NCBI GenBank assembly: GCA_023078555.1
Contig: CM041200.1
Location: 1,488,001 to 1,552,000 of the forward strand
Direction: 5' to 3'
DNA: 64,000 nucleotides
Source of the DNA: Ulva prolifera
Lineage: Eukaryota > Chlorophyta > Ulvophyceae > Ulvales > Ulvaceae
Shown here: in pieces, positions 5,609 to 64,000 of the stretch
Layout: the number at the start of each line of letters is the position of its first letter
Numbering within the stretch: the first letter of the stretch is position 1
The notes under the pieces: model-generated
What the model was told of the DNA's origin: nothing
Seen by the model: only the letters and a program-made list of their open reading frames with translations
Databases searched by the model: none
Position numbers and translations under genes: made by a program

Positions 5609-8600
5609 ATGGGTGCGACTGGAGCCCCCTCTGTGCTTGTAAATTGGAACATTGTGCTTCTGTGGTCTGCCTAACGCCAGATCTTCCGTGCAGCGTTCTT
5701 CGGCTCCGGCACGCAACAGAAGTCCGTCTTCGGAGGGTCGGTAGGTCTCTGCTCTCAGATGCACCAATCGCCTACAGAAAATGTATAGCGCTGACCCCGC
5801 TCTCAATGCAGGGATTCGGTGGAATCTCTCCGGCGTCTTCATCGGCCTTTGGGCAGCCTGCTGCAGCCGGGTTCGGGGTGCGCTTCAGCGAGGCACACGA
5901 CCTTTTTGTGACAATGTCGAGAAACAGATATCCTGCATTCATGCAGAGAGTTCCTGCAGGGATCCGCGTTTGGTGCACAGACGGCGAGCGCCTTTGGCTC
6001 TACGTTTGGGCAGTCCAGTCCTGCATTAGGAGGTGTGCCTCCTCCCAACGTGTCCTGACGCATTCATTGACCCTTCATATCACTGACCGTGAGCCGAGTC
6101 TGATTGCTATGCATGATGGTCATGACCATGTCGTCCATACATAACCCTCCAGTCCATTTGAAAGCCCTCTGCAGGTGGTCTTTTTGGGTCTCCGCAGCCC
6201 CAGCCACAGGGTGGGCTGTTTGGAGGCGCAGGAGCAGCGGGATTCGGGTCATTTTCTCAGCCCACCTCCGCATTTGGAGCAGCGCCAGCCACACCAGGAT
6301 TCGGTGCAGCACAGCCGCAGGCGCAGCCCAGTGCCATACAACAACCGCCAGCAGCTCTGCACCCCCAATTGGGATACCCAACAAACGGGCAAGGCAGCCG
6401 AGTTGCCCCATTCCAGCCAGAAAATACCAAACAGCAAGATCAAGCTGTGCAGCAGTTCCGGACGATTTCTGCTATGCCTGCATATATTGACAAAAGCCCG
6501 GAGGAACTCCGCCTGGAAGACTACTCCAACAACTGTAAGGGAGCCTCAGGCGCGCAGCCGTATCCAACTGTCCATCCTTCAAAGACTGCAGCAGCAGGTG
6601 CGCTTGCCTCCTTGTGAGATTGCTCCATAGCTGGCAGCATGTCGAAGCTGTTTGTGATTCATTGAGCATGTTGCTTTGCATCCTCTAGCAGTGGTGTCAC
6701 AGTTTAGACGCTTGAAGGCACTCAGGGCTTTGGTTCTCCTGGGGCGGGTGGTTTCGGGGCCGGCGCAAGCACGTTCGGGGCTTTCGGGGCATCAGCCTCT
6801 GCATTCGGTGCTTCTGCATCCGGATTCGGCGCACCTGCGCAGGGAGGATCTTTGTTTGGGCAACCAGCATCACAGCCCTCACTATTCGGCGCACAACCCG
6901 CTGCCCAGACTTCATTGTTTGGCAATACAAGCCCTGGATTCGGAGGTATGTCCAGGACCCCGGGCGGAACACCCTGAGGCTGCCCCCGTGTAACATCACT
7001 TTGTATCGTGATACATTAGCTTTCTCGTGACCTTCGACGAAGCTGGCGTGTGTGCAGGGAGCACCTTTGGTCAGCCAGCAGGTCAGGCACCTGGATTCGG
7101 CTTCTCCCAGCCAGCTCAGGCCTCGCCGTTTGGGGCCCCTGCAGCTTCATCGACAAGCCTCTTCGGTGGCCAGCAGGCCAGCCCTTTTGGCCAGAAGCCA
7201 GCTGCGACCGGCTTGTTTGGTGCACCGGCACAATCTTCGCCAAGCCTGTTTGGCGCTCCAGCATCATCGCAGTCTTTGTTTGGCGCCCCAGCTGCATCCT
7301 CAGCCTCACTTTTCAATCAGCCTGGCGCCGCCTCACCATTCGGCACGCCCATCAAGCCTGCAGGCTTCGGCGCAGCACCAGCGGCAAGCCCATTTGGGCA
7401 GCAGCCAGCACAGCCTGCTGGTGGCCTGTTTGGCCAGGCGAGCTCCGCCAGCCTGTTCGGAGCCCCAGCCTCCGCTCCGCTGTTTGGCCAGCAGAGTAGC
7501 GCATCCCTGTTTGGCACGCCGTCCAGCGGCGGCCTGTTCGGTAACACAGGTGCTGGTGCATTTGGCCAGAAACCTGCCACGCCTGGCGGGGGCGGCCTGT
7601 TTGGGAACACAGGTGGCTCCCTGTTTGGCCAGCAATCGTCTGCATCGCTGTTCGGCACCGGTACCGCGCTCGGCGCTGGCGGAGGTGGCCTCTTCGGCGC
7701 ACCTGCGTCCTCTGCCTCCCTCTTCGGGGGGGCGCCCGCACCATCGATGTTCGGGGCCCCTGCGCAGCCAGCCGCAGGCGCGGGGCTCGGAGGCATGTTT
7801 GGCCAGCCGGCCGGCGGCGCCGTGGTCCCGGCATCTCCACCAGTTGCGCCTGCTGTAGCAGGGCAGTCTCCGTACGGCGCGCTGCCGGCTGTCCCCGTGC
7901 TTCCGGACATGAAGAGCGGCATCGCTGCATCACCTGTCAACCGCTCGGTGAAGGTGGCACCGCCGGTGGTCTTCCGCCCCCACCGGCGGCCGACCACACC
8001 GCTGCGATCCCCTCTGCGAACCCCCAAGACGTCTCCAGCACCCGGAACCAATGAGACCCAGCGCCACCTGGCATCGCGTTCGCCATCCATCTTTAAGATT
8101 TCGTACCGGGACCCTGGCCTCGTCATCAACGGCCCGCTGCCCAGCACGGCCTCGAGGTCCAGCCCCCCAGCTGCTGCCGACGGCCAGGGCATGCCTTCCC
8201 CTGGGTCCAGCCCTCCGACAGCCGCGCTGGCCGGGCCCAGCTCTGCCATGCGTCAGCATCTTGTGACTCCCGAAATACAGCCCATCGGTGCTGTACACAG
8301 TGGTAGCCGCCAGCCCGGTCCGAGCTCACGCCGTGACACAGCGTCTCCTTCACCGCCGCCACTGCAAGGCAATGGTTCCTATGAGGCTGCTGATGAGCGG
8401 CCTTCAGGGTCGAAGACAGAGGTCAGAATTCCCGAAGTCCCTGAAGGCTGGTTCATGAAGCCACCGCCGGAAGATCTGCGGGCGAAACTGAGCCGGGATC
8501 CAGAGTCAATCAAAGCTGTAGACAGATTCACCGTCGGCAAGAACGGGGTCGGAAAAATCATGTTCCTGGAAGACGTTGACCTGTCTGAAGTGAAGAACCT

Positions 8601-11600
8601 TGGTGATGTGTTCACCATCCAACCTGGCCATGTGGCTGCATACCTGGAGGGTGGCATATCCAAGCCGCCCTTTGGGCACGGGTGCAACCAGCCAGCTCGC
8701 ATTCAGATAAATTTGCCAGTCAAGCGACTCAATAAAGTCGTCAAGCGTGACCAGTGCAAGTCTACAGAGGAGCACATTAGCAAGGTCAAACTGGCGCTGC
8801 AGAGGATGAACTCGGAAACAGGCAGCACGTTTGTGTCATGCCAGGTTCTGGATTCGACCAACGTCATGTGGACGTTTGAAGTCCCTCATTGGTCTAGGTG
8901 AGACCCTGACTCCACATCCACATGGCCGCTTGGTGTGCGGATGGGATTAGAAACAGCACATTTGGCAGGCTGTGCTACGCTGTCTTATGCACGAATTGCG
9001 TAGAACAGTTGCTCAGTCAAGCATGCTCGGCAGCGGCCCGGTGTCCGTGTCCATGTCAGTTTTAGTGGGTGGTGTATGCTGCCTGAACCATCTGCTGGCC
9101 GCACAGGGCACCGCTGTCAAGTTGGGTCTCTACGCGATGTGGGTCTCTGTGCGCATTTGATGGTGGGTCAAGTAGTCGTTGTTCCACCAGTCTAGTGGCT
9201 GTGTTCCAACTGCTTGTAGCGTGCGTGTGAAGCCTAGATTTGGTGATGATGGGTGTTTGTGCATGCATCTGGGGCAGTTCTTACGCCAAAGCAGTGTTGC
9301 TGCCATGCACTCGTTTGTAATTACGTGGGCGATACAACTCTCTGTGGGAGTACATGCTTCCAGCCGCCAGCGATGTTTTCCTGTTCCTTGCATCACGATT
9401 TGTCAATGAATACACATGACCTCGAATCGCCACATCCCTTTGGCATAGTTGACCACAACGCCGTACTTTCCTGCCCGTGATGTGGATATACGCCGTGGCA
9501 TGTGATGTGCTGGTAGACCATCTGATCAGCACAATGCCAAACCAGTCGCACTGCACAATGTGTCGCTTTCTTTGCTTTGTGAGGTGGCGTGTCTCTTTGC
9601 AGACATGCTGATGCAGGCACGGCAGTTTCGGTTTGGCATATGTGTGCCTGTTTGTGTTGATGATGTGCATCACTGGCGTTCATCTAGCCACAGATGATGC
9701 AAGCACGCCATGGCTGCTGTGTCTCGCCCTGTGTATGTTGTAACTAGCTGGTTCTCACGAGTGAGGCATCGTTTGCAGGTATGGGCTGCCTCCTGAGCTC
9801 TGTGGGTCTGCATCAGATGACTCTGACATCGAGGCAGACATGGGCATTGTGCTGCGACGCCCTACAGCAGGCAGGCCCCGCGCAGCCCAGGCCGAGCCTG
9901 TGCCGGCAGACTTTGCAGCAGTTCCTGCAGATAGCTATAAGATCGACTCTGAAGACAATGCATCAGATGGCACCGACATGCACGAGGTCGAGTCTCAGCC
10001 CGTCACGCCGCCGGTCCATACACACACTGTGTTTCAGCCGCTGCAACCGCTGTACGAGCGCTTGAGCGCTGCAGCAGCGCCACTGGCCTCGCCAATGAGC
10101 GCGGAGCAGGCACTGGCGACGCCGCCCAGTGCCAACGTGCCCGCCCCTGACTCGCGCAGGGTCCAGACGGCATGGGCTGCCCCCGCTCGGCCACTGCAGC
10201 TTCAGCGACCCAGCAGCGCAGATGCGCCACCGGACGTGTCGATGCTGACGCAGCGCGAGGTGCTCCAAGTGGCAGCAGGAGACAAGTGCATGCCGCCGAG
10301 CGACGCGTCCGTTATCACGGACATGTGGCCCCTGATGAGCCGCTCGCGCCGTGCCCACATCTCAGCGCAGGGACGGATTGCCTCGGCCTCCCATACAGTC
10401 GTGGGCACGCAGATGCGCTCGTCCGTGAAGCTTGCCAAGCTGCTGCCGGGCGCGGTGCTGCTGAGCGAGGCGGTGCCAGAAGGCGACGTTGCGTGCCGGG
10501 GGGTACGCGACGTCCTGCGGCAGCGCGCACAGCGGCTGCTGGAAGTGCACTCGCAGTACAGCAGCGCTGCCTGGGCCGGCGGCGACGACGCGGCAGTGGC
10601 CGCCTCCCCCGGGAGTGCCGGCATGGACGTGGACATGGCTGTGACGAATGCAGACGATGCCAGCACAGGGCTGCAGCCTCATCTGGTGTTCTCCTGCCAG
10701 GCTGACACCATGCCATGCGAGGCCATGAAAGACGCCTGCAGCCATGACCGTTGGCTCCAAGGCGAGTCTGATCTATGCGCCACCGTCGCAAAGTGTGCGC
10801 CAGCCCTGGGCGAGCACTCGAGAGCCCTTGCGGCGACGTTCGCTCTCATACGCAGGCTGTTCAGGGCGCTGGCGCCAGCTGATGGCTCGCAGGACGCAGG
10901 CAGTGATAACGTCGCAGGGCTGCTAGCTGTGCAGCGTAAGCTGGAGCTGTCAGACTGGCTGGAGGAGCAGGTGGACCGTGAAGTAGCAGAAGCCTTGCCA
11001 CAGGTGCACCTCCCCTCGATGGCACCGCACGCCTGCTGCCATGTGAATGTGCTGCGCGTGCTCCACTGACATGCTGCATGCTGTGCAGGCTGAGCAGTCG
11101 GCAGGAGGCGCGCAGGCGGTCGTTGTGGAGCTGCTGTCTGCGCACGACATCCCAACCGCTGTGCGGGTTGCCACGGGCGCCGGGCTGCCGCGGCTGGCAT
11201 GCCTGATCGCCGGCGCTGGCCTCTCCCCGGGCAGCTCTGCACTGCTGGCGCACCAGATCTCGGCCCCGGGGGGCCTGCCCTCGTGGGAGACGTCTGGCCT
11301 CTTTCACGACCCGCAGCGCCGCCTTATGCCGCCGCCCCTCGAGGCCGCATACAAGCTTCTTGCCGGTGACATCGCTGCGGCGCTGGCTTTCCTGCTCAGC
11401 CGCGAGGTCACCTGGCAGCGGGTATTTGCGATGTGCCTCTGGTATAGCGTCTCGCCGGACCAGCCGCTGGCCGCAGCCATTCTCAGCTTCAGCCACATGC
11501 TCTCCTCCGCGCCCTTGCACAGCGGTGCAGCCGTGCCGTTTCCGAGCCCGTGGTACGAGCATGTGTCGCTCCGCGCGCCTCCGCGGCAGTCCCGGCAGCA

Positions 11601-12726
11601 GCGGGTGGACGTGCAGTACGTGCTGCTCCACCTGGCCGCGCGGGAGCCGCTGATGCTCTCGAGCGCTCCGTCATCGCTGGCTCTGCGCCTCGCGTCCACG
11701 GGGCCCTACTCCCCGGACCCGCTGGACGCGCTGGTGCCGTGGCTCGTCTGCGGCATCCTCATGGCCGTTGGGGTCATGCAGGACGACTGCGGCGGCGACC
11801 GCACACTGGCGGACGTCTACGCGCAGGTCACCCTGGACTGCGCGGCGACGCTCGTGTGGCTCGGCGAGTCACGATGGGCGGTTTACGTGCTCTGCCACCT
11901 GCCGGTGCGCATCCGCTCTGCTGTATGTGTTCTATGCTGCCGAACCGTACAGCATTGCCAAGCTATTGCTGGACTGCAGGTCTCGGATGAGGGGTCGGTG
12001 CAGGCAAAAATGGAGCTGCTGCAGCACGTACTGGACATCCACCGTGCCGAGGCGGCGTCTGAGGAGGCTGCGAAGGCTGATCAGGAGTGGCTGTTGGGAA
12101 CCTGCCGCATCCCGACGCACCTGATTGCCCGTGCAGACGCGCTGGCCGCGCAGGCGCAGTTCCGGACGAACGCTCATGCTGAGGCACTGGCGAATGCGGA
12201 GCAGCAGGATGGCGCGCATGCGTTCATGATGCGTACAGCCGGCCCTCAGCACCTCAGCCGGAACCAGTCGCCCGAGCTGGGCGCGTGGCTGCTGACGTGT
12301 CCCTCCCTGAAGAGCCAAGACGCTGCAGCCATCCGGGTACGCACCAGCACAGCGCGCACTCTTGTTCCTTAAAACGCGTCCATCCTGACCGGTAGCGTCG
12401 TGCAGGAATTCCTGCATCTGCGTGCGCGCATCGAGGCGAGGGCAGATACGCGGCATGGAGAGGTGGTGAGCAGCCATGAGGAGCGGGAGGCTGCGTATAC
12501 CGTGTTGCTGCATGTTTGCACGCGCTTGAGTGAACTCAAGGCTCAGGGCGCGGGCTGTGAGGTGCAGCAGGCCATGTTTGCACACATGGCCGCACTGCTT
12601 GGAAAGTGGCTGCTGGCTGGGCCACGGGGCGCTGTGAGCATCACTGATCAGGCAGGGGCAGCATCCTTGCTGCGCCATATTCCCGGCTCGGCCCTGAGTT
12701 TCCATGAGGTAGTAGGCCGGGCATGA
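5609..12726 (+). CDS. NUP98: NUP98-NUP96 nucleoporin precursor
   Basis: This encodes the autocleaved precursor of two nuclear-pore proteins: NUP98 (FG-repeat barrier and mRNA export) and NUP96 (scaffold of the NUP107-160 Y-complex). Ten exons join in phase: 5609..5612, 5694..5740, 5812..5877, 5960..6032, 6175..6597, 6718..6945, 7058..8897, 9779..11003, 11089..12336 and 12406..12726 (1824 aa). Order of parts: GLFG/FG repeats; a GLEBS-type RAE1-binding motif ending KSPEELRLEDY in exon 5; more FG repeats with LFGAPA units in exon 7; a proline/serine-rich linker; and the autoproteolytic domain (EGWFMKPPPEDLRAKL to FEVPHWS). After cleavage comes RYGLPPELCGS, like human KYGLQDS, then an acidic stretch and the helical NUP96 domain. 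Two details are odd: the coding part of exon 1 is only ATG plus one base, and the cleavage tripeptide is HWS instead of HFS. The acceptor of exon 6 (AAG) is the least certain junction. Confidence 0.5.
5694..7870 (+). repeat. FG/GLFG repeat-coding region of NUP98
   Basis: Exons 2-7 encode dozens of FG dipeptides, many as LFG, AFG or GFG, separated by short Ala/Pro/Gln/Ser spacers. The most regular part (about 7130-7800) has LFGAPA or SLFG units every 10-15 residues. These form the disordered, karyopherin-binding meshwork of the pore. The low complexity also opens long spurious frames on both strands here. Confidence 0.5.
6444..6530 (+). other. GLEBS motif (RAE1/GLE2-binding) of NUP98
   Basis: Exon 5 encodes RTISAMPAYIDKSPEELRLE followed by DY, the GLEBS consensus that docks the mRNA-export factor RAE1. 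It lies between two FG-repeat blocks, as in animal and yeast homologues. Confidence 0.5.
8887..8898 (+). other. Autoproteolysis site of the NUP98-96 precursor (HWS)
   Basis: The autoproteolytic domain ends in VPHWS at the last codons of exon 7. Cleavage in the family occurs just before the serine of HFS. Here phenylalanine is replaced by tryptophan, while His and the nucleophilic Ser (8893-8895) remain. The next exon begins RYGLP, matching the residues after the human cut site. Confidence 0.5.
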
Positions 12727-47896: not shown

Positions 47897-50153
47897 CAAA
47901 TGCCGAAGCATGTAGACTGGGTGGACCGCTTCGATGGCCAAGCCCGAAAAGGGTGCGACATCCTGGTCCAAGCCCTGGAGCGTGAGGGCGTCCACACTGT
48001 ATTCGCCTATCCTGGAGGAGCGTCCATGGAGATCCATCAGGCTCTCACCCGCTCATCCGGCATCCGCAACATCCTCTGCCGCCACGAGCAGGTACATTCC
48101 CCACCCCATCCCGCCCCCTCCCCTCAACCTCCCTCCCTTACCCACACTGCACCTCACTGCAGGGAGAGGTCTTTGCCGCCGAGGGCTGGGGCAAGTGCAC
48201 CGGCGAGGTTGGCGTGTGCATCGCGACGTCCGGCCCGGGCGCCACCAACCTCGTAACCGGCCTCGCTGACGCGCTCCTGGACTCCGTACCGATGGTTGCC
48301 ATCACCGGGCAGGTCCCGCGGCCGATGATCGGCACTGACGCCTTCCAGGAGACGCCCATCGTCGAGATCACTCGCCAGATCACCAAGCACAACTACCTCG
48401 TCATGGACGTGTCCGACATCGCGCGTGTGGTCAAGGAGGCCTTCTACCTCGCCCGTACCGGCCGCCCCGGCCCGGTGCTCATCGACATCCCAAAGGATGT
48501 GCAGCAGCAGATGCATGTGCCGGACTGGGACGCGCCGATGGCGATCACGGGCTACATGAACCGTCTGCCGGCGCCGCCGATCCGTGAGACCCTCGCGCCC
48601 GTCCTTAAGGCACTGCGCGGCAGCAGCAAGCCGATTGCGTACATCGGCGGCGGCTGCCTCGACGCCGGCGCGGAGGTCACGCAGTTCCTGGAGGCGACGG
48701 GCGTGCCCGTGGTGCAGACGCTGATGGGCCTCGGCTCGTACAACATGACGGAGCCACAGTCGCACGGCATGCTCGGCATGCATGGCACGGTTTCGGCGAA
48801 CGCGGCTGTGGACGGCGCGGACCTGCTGCTCGCGATCGGCGTGCGGTTTGACGACCGCGTGACAGGCAAGCTGGAGACGTTTGCGGCGCGCGCACGCATC
48901 GTGCACATTGACATCGACCCGGCAGAGATCGATAAGAACAAGCATGCGCACGTGCCGGTGTGTGCGGACGCACGCTCCGCTCTCACCGTGCTCAACACGA
49001 TGCTCGAGGATGACCCGGTGCCGCCGGCGCAGTTTGCGGAGTGGCGCGGCTACCTCGACGAGCAGCGGGAGGCCTTCCCGATGCGCTTCCCGCAGCGCGA
49101 CGACGTCATCGTGCCGCAGTGGGCGATCCAGCAGCTGTGGGAGGAGACGGACGGCGAGGCGGTGATCACTACTGGCGTTGGGCAGCACCAGATGTGGGCC
49201 GCGCAGTGGTACCCCTTCCGCAATCCGCGCTCCTGGGTCAGCTCTGGTGGCCTCGGGTCGATGGGCTTCGGCCTGCCGTCGGCGCTCGGCGCCGCTGCAG
49301 CCTTTGACGGTGCGCCACCCTGCATGCGCCACTCGCTGAAGCGTGGCCGCTGCGCCCGCCTGCTTGCACACCTGCGCGGGGATGTCCGTGCACAGCAAAC
49401 CCGCTGCTGCGCTGGGTGTGTCACTATTTGAGTCAGATTCCAACGGCGTGTGGGAGGCAGCCGTGGTGTGAGGGGCGGAGGGTGTGCGCAGGTAAGGATG
49501 GGCGGCCGAAGCGGACGGTCGTGGACATCGACGGCGACGGCTCGTTCCTGATGAATGTGCAGGAGCTCGCGACGGCCAAGGTCGACAACCTCGGCACCAA
49601 GGTCTTCATCCTCAACAACCAGCACCTCGGCATGGTGGTGCAGTGGGAGGACCGCTTCTACAAGGCCAACCGCGCCCACACGTACCTCGGCCGCCGCGAC
49701 GGTGCGCCTCCGCCCTCACCCTGCCTGGCCTCGGCCTCTGCTGCTCACCCTGGGCTCTGCCGTTCGGCAGAGGCGGCCAGGTTGTTGCAATGTGTGGGTG
49801 ACTAGACTTGTTGTGGCTCAGCCGTACTCGATGCCTGCCTTGGTGGAGCCTGGTGCTGGTGCTGGGAGGTGGTGACGTGCGTGGTGTGCTGTGCAGCTGA
49901 GTACCATGAGACCGGCGAGGTGTCTGACATCTACCCCGACTTTGTCAAGATGGCTGAGGCGTTTGGTGTCCCTGGGGAGCGTGTGTTCAAGCCTGAGGAG
50001 CTCCGACCGGCGATCCGGCGGATGTTGGACACTGAGGGGCCGTACTTGCTGGACATCATGGTCCCGCACATCGAGCATGTGCTGCCCATGATCCCAGGTG
50101 GAGGCAGCTTCAAGGATATCATCACCAAGGGCGACGGTACTTGGGATTATTAG
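47897..50153 (+). CDS. ALS: Acetolactate synthase (acetohydroxyacid synthase), catalytic subunit, first exon unresolved
   Basis: This thiamine-diphosphate enzyme makes 2-acetolactate or 2-aceto-2-hydroxybutyrate, the first shared step of Val, Leu and Ile synthesis, in the plastid. Four exons join in phase: 47897..48091, 48163..49309, 49492..49701 and 49897..50153 (602 aa of mature protein). Motifs: [34 protein letters not shown] (catalytic Glu), [83 protein letters not shown] with [15 protein letters not shown] (thiamine/Mg site), and [20 protein letters not shown]. The plastid transit peptide should lie in an upstream exon not placed here. Third codon positions are almost all G or C, unlike TBCD or PP2C. 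A regulatory small subunit is not in the window. Confidence 0.5.
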
Positions 50154-50223
50154 CACCGCGGCGTTGCTGTGATGAATTGCGCCTACTTCCTGTGCACGTT
50201 GATGAGGCGCCGTTGTTCGTATG

Positions 50224-50228
50224 TGTAA
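50224..50228 (+). terminator. TGTAA polyadenylation signal of acetolactate synthase
   Basis: TGTAA lies 71 nt after the acetolactate synthase stop codon. Confidence 0.5.
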
Positions 50229-50660
50229 TGCTGCTCCCGGCCTGATGGAGGCTCTGCAATCTTTCGCGATGCACATAATCCTCGTGTACACAAACTGACT
50301 ACAGAGAATCCACTACGCTGGGCGCAACCGCAACGCTGTAGCTCCGAGCGCCACCTCCACAGCTGCTCAGCATGAGTCAACGCGCCGCGGAGGTGGAATT
50401 CGATCTGATCACGTGTCGAGCATTGAGCACATTTCCGTCTTGCAGAGCTGTAGCAGGCAGTGCAAAGCCACACCGCACCCAACATGTTTGCGTGTCGATG
50501 TCGTGTGGCTGGAGAATGCTCACCGGTGGTTGCAGTGAAGTTGCGCGTGTGAGTTCGACTGCATCCAGCTGTGTGTGCCTTCATGCCATGTACGCCTGGC
50601 GGTGAGATCGGATGAACTGCTGCAGTCTCCTGCAGCCGTGCCATTACTGACTTCTCAAAG

Positions 50661-53353
50661 ATGCAGCGTGCGTGCGCCTTGCTGCGAGGCACGGCTGGGG
50701 ATGCAATATTGCAGCTGCGCCAACTCAGCACGTCAAGCGCACACTGCCGGCACCCAGGAAGCCCTGACGAGGAGGATCCACAAGAACGCATCCTCATTCC
50801 ATGGGTGCGGACGGTCATCAACGGCGTTGCTATTATGCGGCATCCGAAGTTCAACAAGGTGCGCGCTGTGAAAGGGATCAGAGGAACCAGCGGTCCACTG
50901 CGCGGCCCCTGCCACGCCGCAGGTCCAGCGCTCACAATCCCATATTGATCTACGCTGCTGATATATGTGCAGGGGCTTGCTTTCACGAATTCAGAGAGGG
51001 AGCGCCTGCATCTGCGCGGGCTCCTGCCCCCAGCTGTCCTAACTCTTCAAACGCAGATGGATCGAGTGATGATAAACGTTCGCACAAAAGCGTCGGATCT
51101 TGAGCGATATGGGTACATGCAGAGCCTGCATGAGCGAAATGAATACCTGTTTTACAAGGTATGAAATATCACTGATGCAAGTGTTGGCAAAACCTCCTTG
51201 ACCTGATCAGACTGCAAGGGTGGCCTGCTCTGCAGCGTGAAGCATGACTGCCGTCACTAAAAGTAGCGGCGACACTGCAGGTGATGAGGGAGCACATATC
51301 GGAGCTGCTGCCCATCGTCCACCTGCCAACAGTCCGCTCAGCATGCAGAAAGTATGGGCTCATGTTCAAGTCGCTACCACGATGCTTGTTTCTCACCAGA
51401 CAGGATCTCGGTGACGTGCACCGCGTCCTGAAGAACTGGCCGGAGCGCAACATCAAGGTTGTCATGGTCACAGATGGCGAAAAGGTGGGCCCGGCTGGGG
51501 ACCTCGGTGTCCATGCAGGTGATCACCCTCCCCACCAAGCCCACGCCACCCACACGGCTCTTGCACATCCAACCGGTTGCCTCAGTCATTCCACACAGCT
51601 CTGAGCTGGCCTGCGCTGCCGAGGGGCCCACAGTCGTCGCTGGCATGCAGTCAATGCGGTCATCGCGAAGCTGTCGCTCATGACGGCCGTAGGAGGCCTC
51701 AACCCGTCGCTCGCGCTGCCGGTGCAGCTAGACCTCGGCACCAACAACGACGGCCTGCTCACGAGCACCTTCTACACCGGCCTGCGGCAGCGCCGTGTCA
51801 CCGGCGAGGCCGCGGGCGAGCTGCTGCACGAGCTCATCCGCTCGATCGAAAACCGCTTCGGGGTCAACACGATGCTGTTCTTCGAGGACATGCAATACCG
51901 CACCACCATGCAGCTGCTCTCGCAATACGGGTGCGGGCACCCCCACGCTCTCTGCGTCCTGTAGACAGGACTGCTTCCGGTCGTGCCGGCATTCAGCCAA
52001 CCCAAGCCGGCTGCCCCCCCCCACGCTCTCTGCGCCGCTGTCGCTGCCTCCGACTGCTGCTGCATCCTGGCACGCGCGGTGCTCCTCCTATCCGTTACTC
52101 CTTTCTCAGATTCTGGTGTCGCAGTCAGGCCTGGTGATGCAAGCTGTGGCAGGGGGGTGCGTGAGGTGGGCAGCGGTGCAGGATGCGGTTCCCCTGCTTT
52201 GCGGATGACTACCAGGGGCTGGCGGCGGCGACGCTCGCGGCGGCGCTCGGCGCACAGGCACACACCGGCATCGCCCTGAAGGACCACCGGGTGCTGGTGT
52301 TGGGCAACGGGCCGCACCGGGTCGCCATCGCCGAGATGCTCGCCTCCGCCATCGCCTCGGACGCCAAGATCCTCGGCTCGCAGGCGCGCCAGAACATCTT
52401 CCTCGCGGACGACGACGGCCTCGTGACCGCGAGCTCGGCGCACGTCGACCGCGAGCACGAGGAGACGCGCGAGGTGCTGCTGTACGCGAAGGATTCCCCC
52501 GACTCGGCGGACGTCGACGAGGTGCGGCCCCACCCCCTCCCAGTCCACCTCGGCACAGCTGCCCTGCATGCGTGTTGCTGCACACGCTCGTGGCCCCGGG
52601 GGTCAGGTGGCCCGCCAACACCACGTACTTCCTTGACTGGGGTACCCGCTGAAAGGACACAGCGACGTCGAGTGAGCCGCCCGCGCTGCATGGAGGGGTG
52701 GCGCAACGCGCATCACCTGCCCGCAGCGGGCACGTGCTGGCCATCAGCCGCGCACCGCCATGCTGAGGGGGGGCCGCGTGCAGATTGTGGACATGGTGAA
52801 GCCGACGATGCTCATCAGCTGCTCCTCCAGCAGCCGCACGATGCGGCGCATCTCCGAGACGGCGGTGCGGCGCATGAGCGCGCATGCCGCGCGCCCCGTG
52901 CTCTTTGCGCTCTCCTCCCCCGAGGAGGAGCTCTCTGCGGCGCAGGCGTATCACTGGTCCGACGGCCGCGCCATCTACGCGAACTTCGAGGGCGAGGAGT
53001 GGGAGGTCACGACGCCACGCGGCGAGGTCCTCGCGCCAAGCAAGGTGCAGTCGGTGTACATCTTCCCGGGCCTATCGCTCGGCGTGTGCGCGACGCGGTC
53101 GGTGCGCATCAAGGAGGACCAGATCGTCGCGGCCGCGCGCACCGTGGCCAGCATGCTCACCGAGGAGGACCGCGAGCGTGGCCGTGTGCTGCCGCCAGTG
53201 TCCCGCGTGCATGAGGTCGCCAAGCAGGTCGCGCTCACCGTCGCCCGCACCTCGTACGAGTACGGGATCGCCACAGCGCTGCCGAAGCCGACAGACCTTG
53301 AGGCCACGATCGAAGCACTCGTGCACGACCCGAACTACGTGCAGTTTGGATAG
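50661..53353 (+). CDS. Malic-enzyme-like protein with altered active site, probably mitochondrial
   Basis: Six exons join in phase: 50661..50858, 50973..51158, 51281..51518, 51651..51930, 52182..52521 and 52784..53353 (603 aa). The N-terminus (MQRACALLRGTAGDAILQLR) is basic and lacks acids, like a mitochondrial presequence. Alignment to malic enzymes runs end to end: NKGLAFTNSERERLHLRGLL, MQSLHERNEYLFYK, VMVTDGEK, LDLGTNN, FFEDM, FADDYQG, HWSDGRAIYA, VYIFPGLSLGV and the C-terminal YGIATALPKP. Metal ligands (Glu-Asp of FEDM, Asp of FADDYQG) and the lysine of AKLSL are kept. Residues normally essential are not: VYTPTVG reads VHLPTVR (catalytic Tyr lost), GERILGLGDLG reads GEKVGPAGDLG, GAGEA reads GNGPHR, SNPT reads SSPE, and GNNVYIFPG reads VQSVYIFPG. 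The gene is intact, so it may encode a non-catalytic or re-tasked protein rather than a working NAD(P)-malic enzyme. Confidence 0.5.
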
Positions 53354-53416
53354 CAGCGCTGCTAGCTGAGAGAGAGTACATTATGCATTGTTTGTTTGCA
53401 TGATTCCATGGCCATG

Positions 53417-53421
53417 TGTAA
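53417..53421 (+). terminator. TGTAA polyadenylation signal of the malic-enzyme-like gene
   Basis: TGTAA lies 64 nt after the stop codon, within the 340-nt gap separating this gene from the convergent F-box/LRR gene. Confidence 0.5.
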
Positions 53422-53693
53422 CTGTTTCGCGAGTGTCTGTTATTGCGGGCTGCTGCCTGGTTGTGCGCGTGTGTTGCATGAGTCTCCATCTATGCATGCT
53501 CAGGGGGGATGCCACATGGGGCACTTCTCAGCCGACGTCTAAAACGGTGACAGTACGCGGCAAGTTGCACTTCTGGCCCTACTGGTGCCTCATGTGGCAC
53601 ACCCCTGGCGACTGGCGCCTAGCACACCCGCGGCGAGCAGCGGCCTGAAAGGCCTACCAACAGTATGTGGCCCGCGGCTATCTCGTGAGAGCG

Positions 53694-56041
53694 TCAGAAA
53701 AACACGATGATGCAGCCTGAGCCGCCGTGTCCCGGGGGCCCCGCGAGGAGGATGCGGGCGCGGAACTTGTGGACGCCCTGGTTGGTGATGCTGGTGCAGC
53801 GCTCGAGGTTGAGCTGGCGCAGCTCGCCCATGACCGCGAGGTTGATCAGGCCATCGTCTGTGAGGCAGCGGCACCCTGCGAGGTCCAGGATCTTGAGCAG
53901 GAACAGGCGGGGCAGCACGTTGAGGCTCGCGTTGGTGAGGTTCGTCGCGCCCTCAAGCGACAGGTTGCGCAGGCTCCGGAAGCGCGTGATCACCGACAGG
54001 CTCTTGTCGGTGATCGCCGAGTCGATGATGCGGAAGCTGAGCAGGCGCGTGCAGCCGGCGAGGTGGGCGAGACCGGCGTCCCCGACGAGGGGCGCGTGGT
54101 TGAGGTCCAGGTTCTCGAGGGCCGTCAGCGCGCACAGCGGCGCGAGCGCCGCGTCGCCGAGCTTCGAGCAGTCCGCAAGCTCCAGCGTCTGCAGCGAGCT
54201 GATGCGTGCGATGCCCTGCAGCAGGCTCGGCGACACGGCGCACGACTTGATGCTCAGGCGGTGCAGGCGGGCGAGCCGGCTGACGGCGGCCGCGGCCGCG
54301 AGCGCCATCGGCTCGGCGCACGAGTGCCACAGCAGCAGCTCGTCGAGGGTCGTGAGGCTGAGGACGGACGAGAGGAAGGCGGCGTGGACGTCGGCGCCGG
54401 CGTTGCCGACACGCAGGTCGAGTGAGAGCTTGCTCATGCCGGTGAGGGCCGAGACGCGGGCGAGCTGCTCGAGCAGGGCGGCGCCCTTGATGTGGCGCAG
54501 GTTGAGGCGCGCGAGGGACGGCAGCGCGGCGAGGATGCCCGGCAGCACGCCCTGTGAGACGAGGGGGCAGTTGTTGACCTCGAGGCAGGAGAGCGCGGAG
54601 AGGCGCGTGATGTGCATCAGCGTGTCGCCCTGCAGCTCGCGGCAGCCCCCAAGCCGCAGCTCCTGCAGCACCGTCAGCCCGCACAGCGTCTCGAACGCTG
54701 CACACACACGCGGGCGTCACAGTCATTGGTCGGCCGCACTGGACGCGGCGAGCATGCACACGGTGGGAGAGAATAGTGGAGGCGAGCGCCTTGGCAAGCT
54801 GCAGCCTCACGCTCCCTCGCCCGCACGGCGGAGATGGCTCTGCAGCGCCATGCAGCTGCAACGAAGAGAGGCTCAGACCACGGGCACAGCGGCGAGCATG
54901 GCACAGGGGGGCGGCGCACCCTGGGCGTTGAGGGGCAGCGACTGCGGGTGGTACTCGCTGGTCTGCCAGAAGTGCACGTTCTCGCCCTCCTGGCGGCCGT
55001 ACAGCGCGAGGCGGCGCAGCGACTGCAGGCGCGACAGCGGCTGCCACGCCGACGCCGACAGCTCCATGCCGCGGCAGCCGTAGAGGTACAGCGTGTCGAG
55101 CAGCGGCAGGCCCGCGAGGACCTCGACCTCGGCATCGGTGAAGCCGGCGCACTTGCCGATGGAGAGGCAGCGCAGCGACGAGGCGCGCTGCAGGCACGAC
55201 AGCGAGTCGGTGTCGATGGTCGCGCGGCCGATGTTGAGCGCCGTGAGGCGCGTGAGCGCCGACGCGATGAACAGCCGCTGCTGCGGGTCCTCGCGGTGGC
55301 GCTCGGTGATGGGGAACGAGATGCGCTCGAGGTTGGGCAGGTCGGCGAGGGTCGGGACGTTGATCAGGCCCGAGACGACGGCGAGCGGCGCATACATCCA
55401 GCGGTCCCAGATGCGCGGCATCACGCCGTCCGCCCAGCACAGCACGTTGGCCTTGCACTTGATGCGGCCGGAGGACGCTGAGTCGATGTGGTCCAGCAGC
55501 GGGCGCAGGTCCACCTGCCGGAGCTGCGGCATGACGCGGAGCGCAGACAGGTCGGCGAGGGAGCGAAGGCAGGGGTGCTGGATCCAGTCGAGGCACTGCG
55601 AGAGGTCGAGGCGGGTGACGGCGACGTACGACTGCAGCGGCAGGAACGACAGCTTGCAGAGGGCGGCCGGCTGCCTCGGGGAGAGGTGCGGCTGCCGGAT
55701 GCTGCACTTCTGGGCGACGTGCTGGTGCACCAGCCGGCGCATGCGGCGGTTCACCTGCACCGCGAACCGCAACCCTGTTGCGCAGGCGCGGACATCGGGC
55801 ACGTGGGCAATCGCCGTACGGTTCTGCTGGAGCCGAAGTTCGTTTCGGCGGCGCGGAGGCCGTCGAGGAGGGACACGCGTGCGTACCTGTGATGCTACCA
55901 GTAGGTCATTGGTGTCTGACGCGGCAAGGACAAGCTCGTCCCCGAGGTTAGACAACACGGTGACCAGAAGCTCGTCCGAGAGCTGCAGCCCCAGCCATGT
56001 GTTCGTGGTTGCTCCACGAGCCTCGTCGTGTTGTGACGGAC
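53694..56041 (-). CDS. F-box/leucine-rich-repeat protein, first exon unresolved
   Basis: Three exons join in phase: 55887..56041, 54920..55754 and 53694..54697, giving about 660 residues. The first part reads LQLSDELLVTVLSNLGDEL, and across the intron LVASQVNRRMRRLVHQHVA, which fits an F-box: LPDELL..IL ... VCRRW+RL. The rest is leucine-rich repeats of the cysteine-containing (AMN1/FBXL) kind, for example LQELRLGGCRELQGDTL, LQTLELADCSKLGDAAL, LKILDLAGCRCLTDDGL and LRQLNLERCTSITNQGV. Such proteins are substrate receptors of SCF ubiquitin ligases. Between F-box and repeats the LRRs are irregular. There is no in-frame ATG in the F-box exon, so the start lies in an unidentified upstream exon. Codons are extremely G+C rich at third positions, which keeps frames up to 580 codons open elsewhere on both strands. 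Confidence 0.5.

Positions 56042-56957: not shown

Positions 56958-64000
<7,043 letters not shown>

Follow-up and report, generated by a model that had tools for sequence, protein, structure and literature searches.

Malic enzymes related to the Ulva gene

The window considered here, a stretch of 64,000 nucleotides of Ulva prolifera DNA, carries at 50661-53353 (+) a malic-enzyme homologue that belongs to a clade of green-algal proteins and is best read, from its sequence and those of its relatives, as an ancient, probably mitochondrial pseudo-malic enzyme. Plant-type nicotinamide adenine dinucleotide phosphate (NADP)-malic enzymes (the A+V clade of Tronconi et al., 2018) have the same two Pfam domains and a common fold, but their eight catalytic positions are intact in 17/17 sequences, chosen by hand from the search lists as controls, and in 0/73 full-length members of the green-algal clade. 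Green-algal NAD-malic enzymes of the MME1 type also share the fold, all five residues of a dimer-interface fumarate pocket (in 19/22 named core-chlorophyte sequences, the rest being gapped) and probably the compartment; they differ in that their catalytic residues are intact and that they form a separate group in the tree. The equivalents of Arg67, Arg91, Gln64, Asn92, and Tyr562 of human ME2, whose numbering is used throughout, are kept in the clade; ME2, however, is catalytic and has Lys57 and Glu59, which the clade does not retain. A precedent for a regulatory malic-enzyme subunit is the beta subunit of C4 NAD-malic enzyme in Cleomaceae, reportedly described by Hudig in 2022; that subunit stems from a recent angiosperm duplication within NAD-malic enzyme, whereas the algal clade is old and lies on the NADP-malic enzyme side.

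A passage in Tronconi et al. (2018; PMC5958461) mentions a very long branch uniting some green-algal isoforms, which carry several changes in conserved motifs; it suggests neofunctionalisation for this cluster, which was omitted from the Bayesian tree and is treated in one sentence, with the data not shown there. Matched by description, that cluster is very probably the clade discussed here. Besides this study, the titles and abstract openings of the open-licence papers listed (in part 20 of 65, 20 of 27, and 20 of 56) showed nothing on a non-catalytic algal malic enzyme, and in those listings the residues lost, the breadth of the clade, and a non-catalytic role were not found stated.

The gene and its active-site residues

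The gene comprises six exons with 603 codons and a stop; its five introns (114-262 bases) are GT-AG in 5/5 cases, and the GC content at third codon positions is 0.83. Pfam matches to PF00390 (159.2 bits) and PF03949 (168 bits), against gathering scores of 23.1 and 23.5, together with the malic-enzyme fold place the product in the malic enzyme superfamily.

All exons lie on the + strand. Exon 1 (50661..50858) encodes an Arg-rich N-terminus (MQRACALLRGTAGDAILQLRQLSTSSA...) resembling a mitochondrial presequence, and the malic-enzyme homology begins within it. Exon 2 (50973..51158) retains the fumarate-pocket residues Gln64, Arg67, Arg91, and Asn92 as residues 94, 97, 121, and 122. Exon 3 (51281..51518) has HLPTVR in place of YTPTVG, so that Tyr112 is His (142) and Thr113 is Leu (143); within GEKVGPAGDLG, which aligns without gaps, Arg165 is Lys (196) and Leu167 is Gly (198). 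Exon 4 (51651..51930) keeps Lys183 (214) and the metal ligands Glu255-Asp256 (286-287). Exon 5 (52182..52521) keeps Asp278-Asp279 (309-310), the latter being the third metal ligand, and its dinucleotide loop reads GNGPHR (342-347) instead of GAGEAG, departing from the GAGxAG pattern. In exon 6 with the stop (52784..53353) the SNPT motif has become SSPEEEL, with Asn421 replaced by Ser (459), and Asn466-Asn467 before YIFPG are Gln-Ser (503-504), while the equivalent of Tyr562 (599) is kept. The positions that mark a catalytic malic enzyme, Tyr112, Arg165, Asn421, and Asn467, thus read His, Lys, Ser, and Ser.

Tyr112, Arg165, Leu167, Asp279, and Asn466 are named in the part of the malic-enzyme literature consulted (PMC12523003). 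The numbering from Gln64 to Asp279 was verified by counting along the human ME3 chain; Asn421, Asn466-467, and Tyr562 were assigned by motif and alignment. The remaining catalytic residues are taken in their customary roles.

An earlier note on this DNA, made from the letters alone, had described six exons giving a full-length 603-residue protein that is not a decaying copy, with substitutions at Tyr112, Arg165, Asn421, the Asn pair, and the GAGEA loop, and with Lys183 and the metal ligands conserved. The GT-AG introns and unbroken frame, the full-length relatives and constraint across the clade, and the alignment bear out all of this. That the gene is decaying or its model mis-spliced, leaving it functionless, is hardly credible. 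The branch leading to the window protein is long, but the 603-residue frame is unbroken, the introns are GT-AG, a full-length relative is 64% identical, and constraint extends across the clade; gene decay was ruled out on this basis. The note had also named other exon junctions that restore the canonical residues as a possibility. When 50000-54000 was scanned in all six frames with loose motif patterns, the R165, GAG, and NN467 motifs had zero matches; the Tyr112 pattern had three chance matches (one on the + strand, two on the - strand) and the Asn421 pattern one (LTHP, - strand), none of them fittingly placed. Because no fitting canonical motif occurs in any frame, alternative splicing cannot restore the canonical residues, and a mis-spliced model was likewise ruled out.

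A green-algal clade that has lost catalytic positions

Three protein searches supplied the relatives (the best 120 of 1891, 120 of 1507, and 120 of 7998 matches), the second with an alignment of 25 as query and the third with the two joined paralogues described below; the clade was drawn from these. Among the matches listed, the full-length protein P0001 has 64% identity to the window protein; the partial P0018 has 84% over 32% of the query and P0062 70% over 47%; the remaining green-algal relatives in the first search are mostly at 39-47%, and the third search returned NAD-malic enzymes, many from the same species.

A tree was built from 188 proteins together with the two paralogues and the window protein, and it places the latter within a clade of 75 green-algal sequences (support 0.993). 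Organisms named as sources of members of this clade include Volvox, Gonium, Edaphochlamys, Tetradesmus, Raphidocelis, Haematococcus, and Scenedesmus ("ME6", P0019); further members come from Coccomyxa, Myrmecia, Chlorella, Micractinium, Picochlorum, Auxenochlorella ("MME6", P0160), Ostreobium, and Bryopsis, and portal codes indicate Botryococcus and Asterochloris. P0016, P0028, and P0122 bear transcript names, and several members are labelled NADP-dependent malic enzyme by their sources. The window protein groups with P0160 and P0019 and is in this sense MME6-like; from the names of these relatives and the C. schloesseri member P0023, Chlamydomonas reinhardtii MME6 is inferred to belong to the clade. 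IQ-TREE was run on 109 sequences, omitting 7/75 clade members, 7/17 plant-type, and 98/121 NAD-malic enzymes; it recovered a group of 74 with Shimodaira-Hasegawa-like approximate likelihood ratio test/ultrafast bootstrap (SH-aLRT/UFBoot) support of 97.7/100 and, more weakly, a core clade of 68 (79.7/74). Plant-type NADP-malic enzymes are the nearest canonical relatives in both trees, and on this topology the green-algal clade is their sister.

For residue counts the fragments P0018 and P0062 were dropped, leaving 73 full-length members. Asn421 is found in 0/73 and Asn467 in 0/73; Tyr112 is kept in 7/73 and Arg165 in 42/73, and the metal ligands in 44/73 (Glu255), 49/73 (Asp256), and 28/73 (Asp279). 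Members keep between 0 and 6 of the eight catalytic positions, as against all eight in 120/121 of the NAD-malic enzymes listed (the C3 gene discussed below included; the remaining one has a gap). The Ala after the first Gly of GAG is present in 0/73, with Glu or Asp in 65/73, and an acidic residue there would fit poorly with a dinucleotide pyrophosphate. Across 97 positions invariant in canonical enzymes, median retention in the clade is 48% for the eight catalytic ones versus 93% for the other 89 (Mann-Whitney p = 0.003). Protein distances between matched species were used in place of the ratio of nonsynonymous to synonymous substitution rates (dN/dS); the clade is constrained, its median distances being 1.25x those of NAD-malic enzymes from the same species. 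Because malate-binding, proton-transfer, and cofactor-loop residues are lost throughout the clade, malate oxidative decarboxylation by its members is very unlikely, and malic enzyme activity is likely to have been lost across it. The pseudoenzyme reading of the earlier note gains support from these losses in green-algal relatives of the kind it had suggested looking for, some of them known from transcripts, and from the two intact genes elsewhere in the genome.

The order of losses may be read from the early branches. In P0105, P0153, and P0159, position 421 is Arg and position 467 is Ser, but Tyr112, Arg165, Lys183, and the metal ligands are all present; these proteins are possibly intermediates, or enzymes with altered specificity. 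P0029, P0157, and P0052 (a Pedinophyceae protein) also have His for Tyr112, and the core clade branches after them in IQ-TREE.

The main rival to a non-catalytic protein is a neofunctionalised enzyme, in which a remodelled pocket would accept another substrate with the help of Lys183 and the retained metal site. This is close to what Tronconi et al. (2018) suggested for the divergent cluster, and several features are consistent with it: position 183 is Lys (42/73) or Arg (31/73) in 73/73 members, Asp278 is present in 72/73, and some replacements in the pocket have come close to fixation, for example Leu167 to Gly (70/73). It is most credible for lineages that keep the metal site, such as that of the window protein, which has all its metal ligands; the "new substrate" of the earlier note is conceivable for this protein, with Lys183 kept as well. 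For the clade it is disfavoured, since several lineages no longer have all the metal ligands, among them Chlorella-type and Scenedesmus-type members and Ostreobium. The replacement at 421 is not fixed (Leu, Arg, Ser, Pro, Gln, Ala, and others), the cofactor loop is variable, and no new shared catalytic set was found among clade members; overall, a new enzymatic function appears unlikely.

The fumarate pocket and a possible regulatory role

All five residues of the fumarate pocket (Gln64, Arg67, Arg91, Asn92, and Tyr562) are kept in the window protein and in 71/73 clade members; the pocket, like the malic-enzyme scaffold, is strongly constrained. Arg67 is present in 72/72 members with a residue there (one has a gap) and Arg91 in 73/73, the window protein included. 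Roles for these residues in human ME2 are given in PMC4049574 and PMC10202922, as far as the parts consulted go.

The most telling clue is that the catalytic site has been lost and the dicarboxylate pocket at the dimer interface retained, a combination that speaks for a regulator sensing fumarate or some similar acid. In general terms, the balance of evidence leans towards the clade protein being a non-catalytic scaffold or regulator. More specifically, the protein would dimerise through its conserved N-terminal domain, bind a dicarboxylate (fumarate or one related to it) in the Arg67/Arg91 pocket, and act by protein contact as a non-catalytic subunit that tunes the canonical NAD-malic enzyme; alternatively, it could be a dicarboxylate-responsive scaffold with another partner. 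That dicarboxylate binding and protein contact operate in one of these two ways is plausible, at somewhat less than even chances. The fullest account is tentative and rather doubtful in its entirety: the green-algal counterpart of the plant NADP-malic enzyme would have become, early in Chlorophyta, a non-catalytic, fumarate-sensing mitochondrial regulator, losing Asn421 and Asn467, then Tyr112, then the cofactor and metal sites piecemeal, with hardly any change in the effector pocket; across green algae this regulator would link NAD-malic enzyme, or some other partner in the mitochondrion, to the dicarboxylate levels of the tricarboxylic acid cycle, and the "MME6" of metabolic models would be no malic enzyme.

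Several observations weigh against a non-catalytic, fumarate-sensing protein. Fumarate activation of human ME2 needs Lys57, Glu59, and Asp102, according to the part of PMC4049574 consulted; in place of the first two, the window protein has Ala and Leu, as do 66/74 and 67/74 of the clade, respectively, and most clade members lack Asp102. A fumarate response does not necessarily follow from two arginines alone. Dimer packing may be the sole reason for the pocket's conservation: among 62 comparable columns 5 are equally invariant, Arg67 being one of them. The window lineage is also faster than NAD-malic enzyme (distances to 15 other species of 1.41-1.81 vs 0.90-1.04). The window protein retains Lys183 and three metal ligands, and taken alone it keeps 4/8 catalytic vs 56/89 other family-invariant positions (Fisher p = 0.48); because this contrast is absent, the case for catalytic loss rests on the clade. 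Volvocine members (P0006, P0004) keep Tyr112 and 5-6 of the eight positions, so some clade members may retain activity. A divergent malic enzyme still working at a reduced rate draws on these same volvocine proteins, which retain Tyr112, Arg165, Lys183, and most metal ligands, and on the NADP-dependent malic enzyme labels; it is nonetheless quite improbable, since Asn421 and Asn467 are absent and the GAG Ala is changed in 73/73, and Tyr112 and Arg165 are missing from the window protein as well.

Probable location in the mitochondrion

Rich in Arg, the N-terminus of the window protein has a single acidic residue among its first 30 positions and contains an RQLSTSS stretch, which is the pattern of matrix presequences. 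Net charge over 30 residues is positive in 18/21 N-termini examined; P0003, P0015, and P0016 have no N-terminal extension and are perhaps incomplete models. The mitochondrial N-terminus proposed in the earlier note is thus plausible, and the protein probably enters mitochondria. For Chlamydomonas MME6 (Cre06.g251400), PMC11548211 lists mitochondrial predictions from TargetP and PredAlgo; the same paper names the locus and reports its mRNA, apparently constant over the day. The AlphaFold model of this protein is described as low-quality in PMC13126933.

Green-algal genes that bear the annotation NADP-dependent malic enzyme probably do not encode malic enzymes. If so, this would affect metabolic models and engineering in which MME6-type genes figure as sources of NADPH, and central carbon metabolism would have an old pseudoenzyme that spans the whole clade, its catalytic site lost and its allosteric pocket kept; a fumarate-sensing role is therefore directly testable, for example in Chlamydomonas.

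Other malic-enzyme genes in the genome

A search of the genome (88.9 Mb, 44 contigs) for a canonical malic enzyme, as the earlier note had proposed, found two more loci, on C5 near 5.19 Mb and on C3 near 1.29 Mb, whose hand-joined models have all eight catalytic positions intact; the idea that no working malic enzyme exists elsewhere in the genome was rejected on these models. The C3 gene is an NAD-malic enzyme (MME1 type). The C5 gene (L008, C5:5190945-5193775 (-)) is divergent and keeps all catalytic residues, and its hand-joined model is without Gln64, Arg91, and Asn92 of the fumarate pocket.

Other features of the window

Upstream on the same strand, the gene at 47986-49431 (+), perhaps extending to a stop at 50153, has three thiamine-pyrophosphate-enzyme domains and is probably an acetolactate synthase, a user of pyruvate. 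Scans for tRNA genes and Rfam families gave no hit anywhere in the window. Stop-to-stop frames of 650 codons at 53956-55905 (-) and 1020 codons at 58111-61170 (+) have no Pfam match and may be due to chance in so GC-rich a stretch. Nup98 autopeptidase and FG-repeat domains (open reading frame 7012-8901), followed by Nup96 (open reading frame 11047-12372), apparently form a Nup98-96 precursor gene at 7012-12372 (+), and at 62991-63223 the dinucleotide TG is repeated perfectly, in 116.5 copies.
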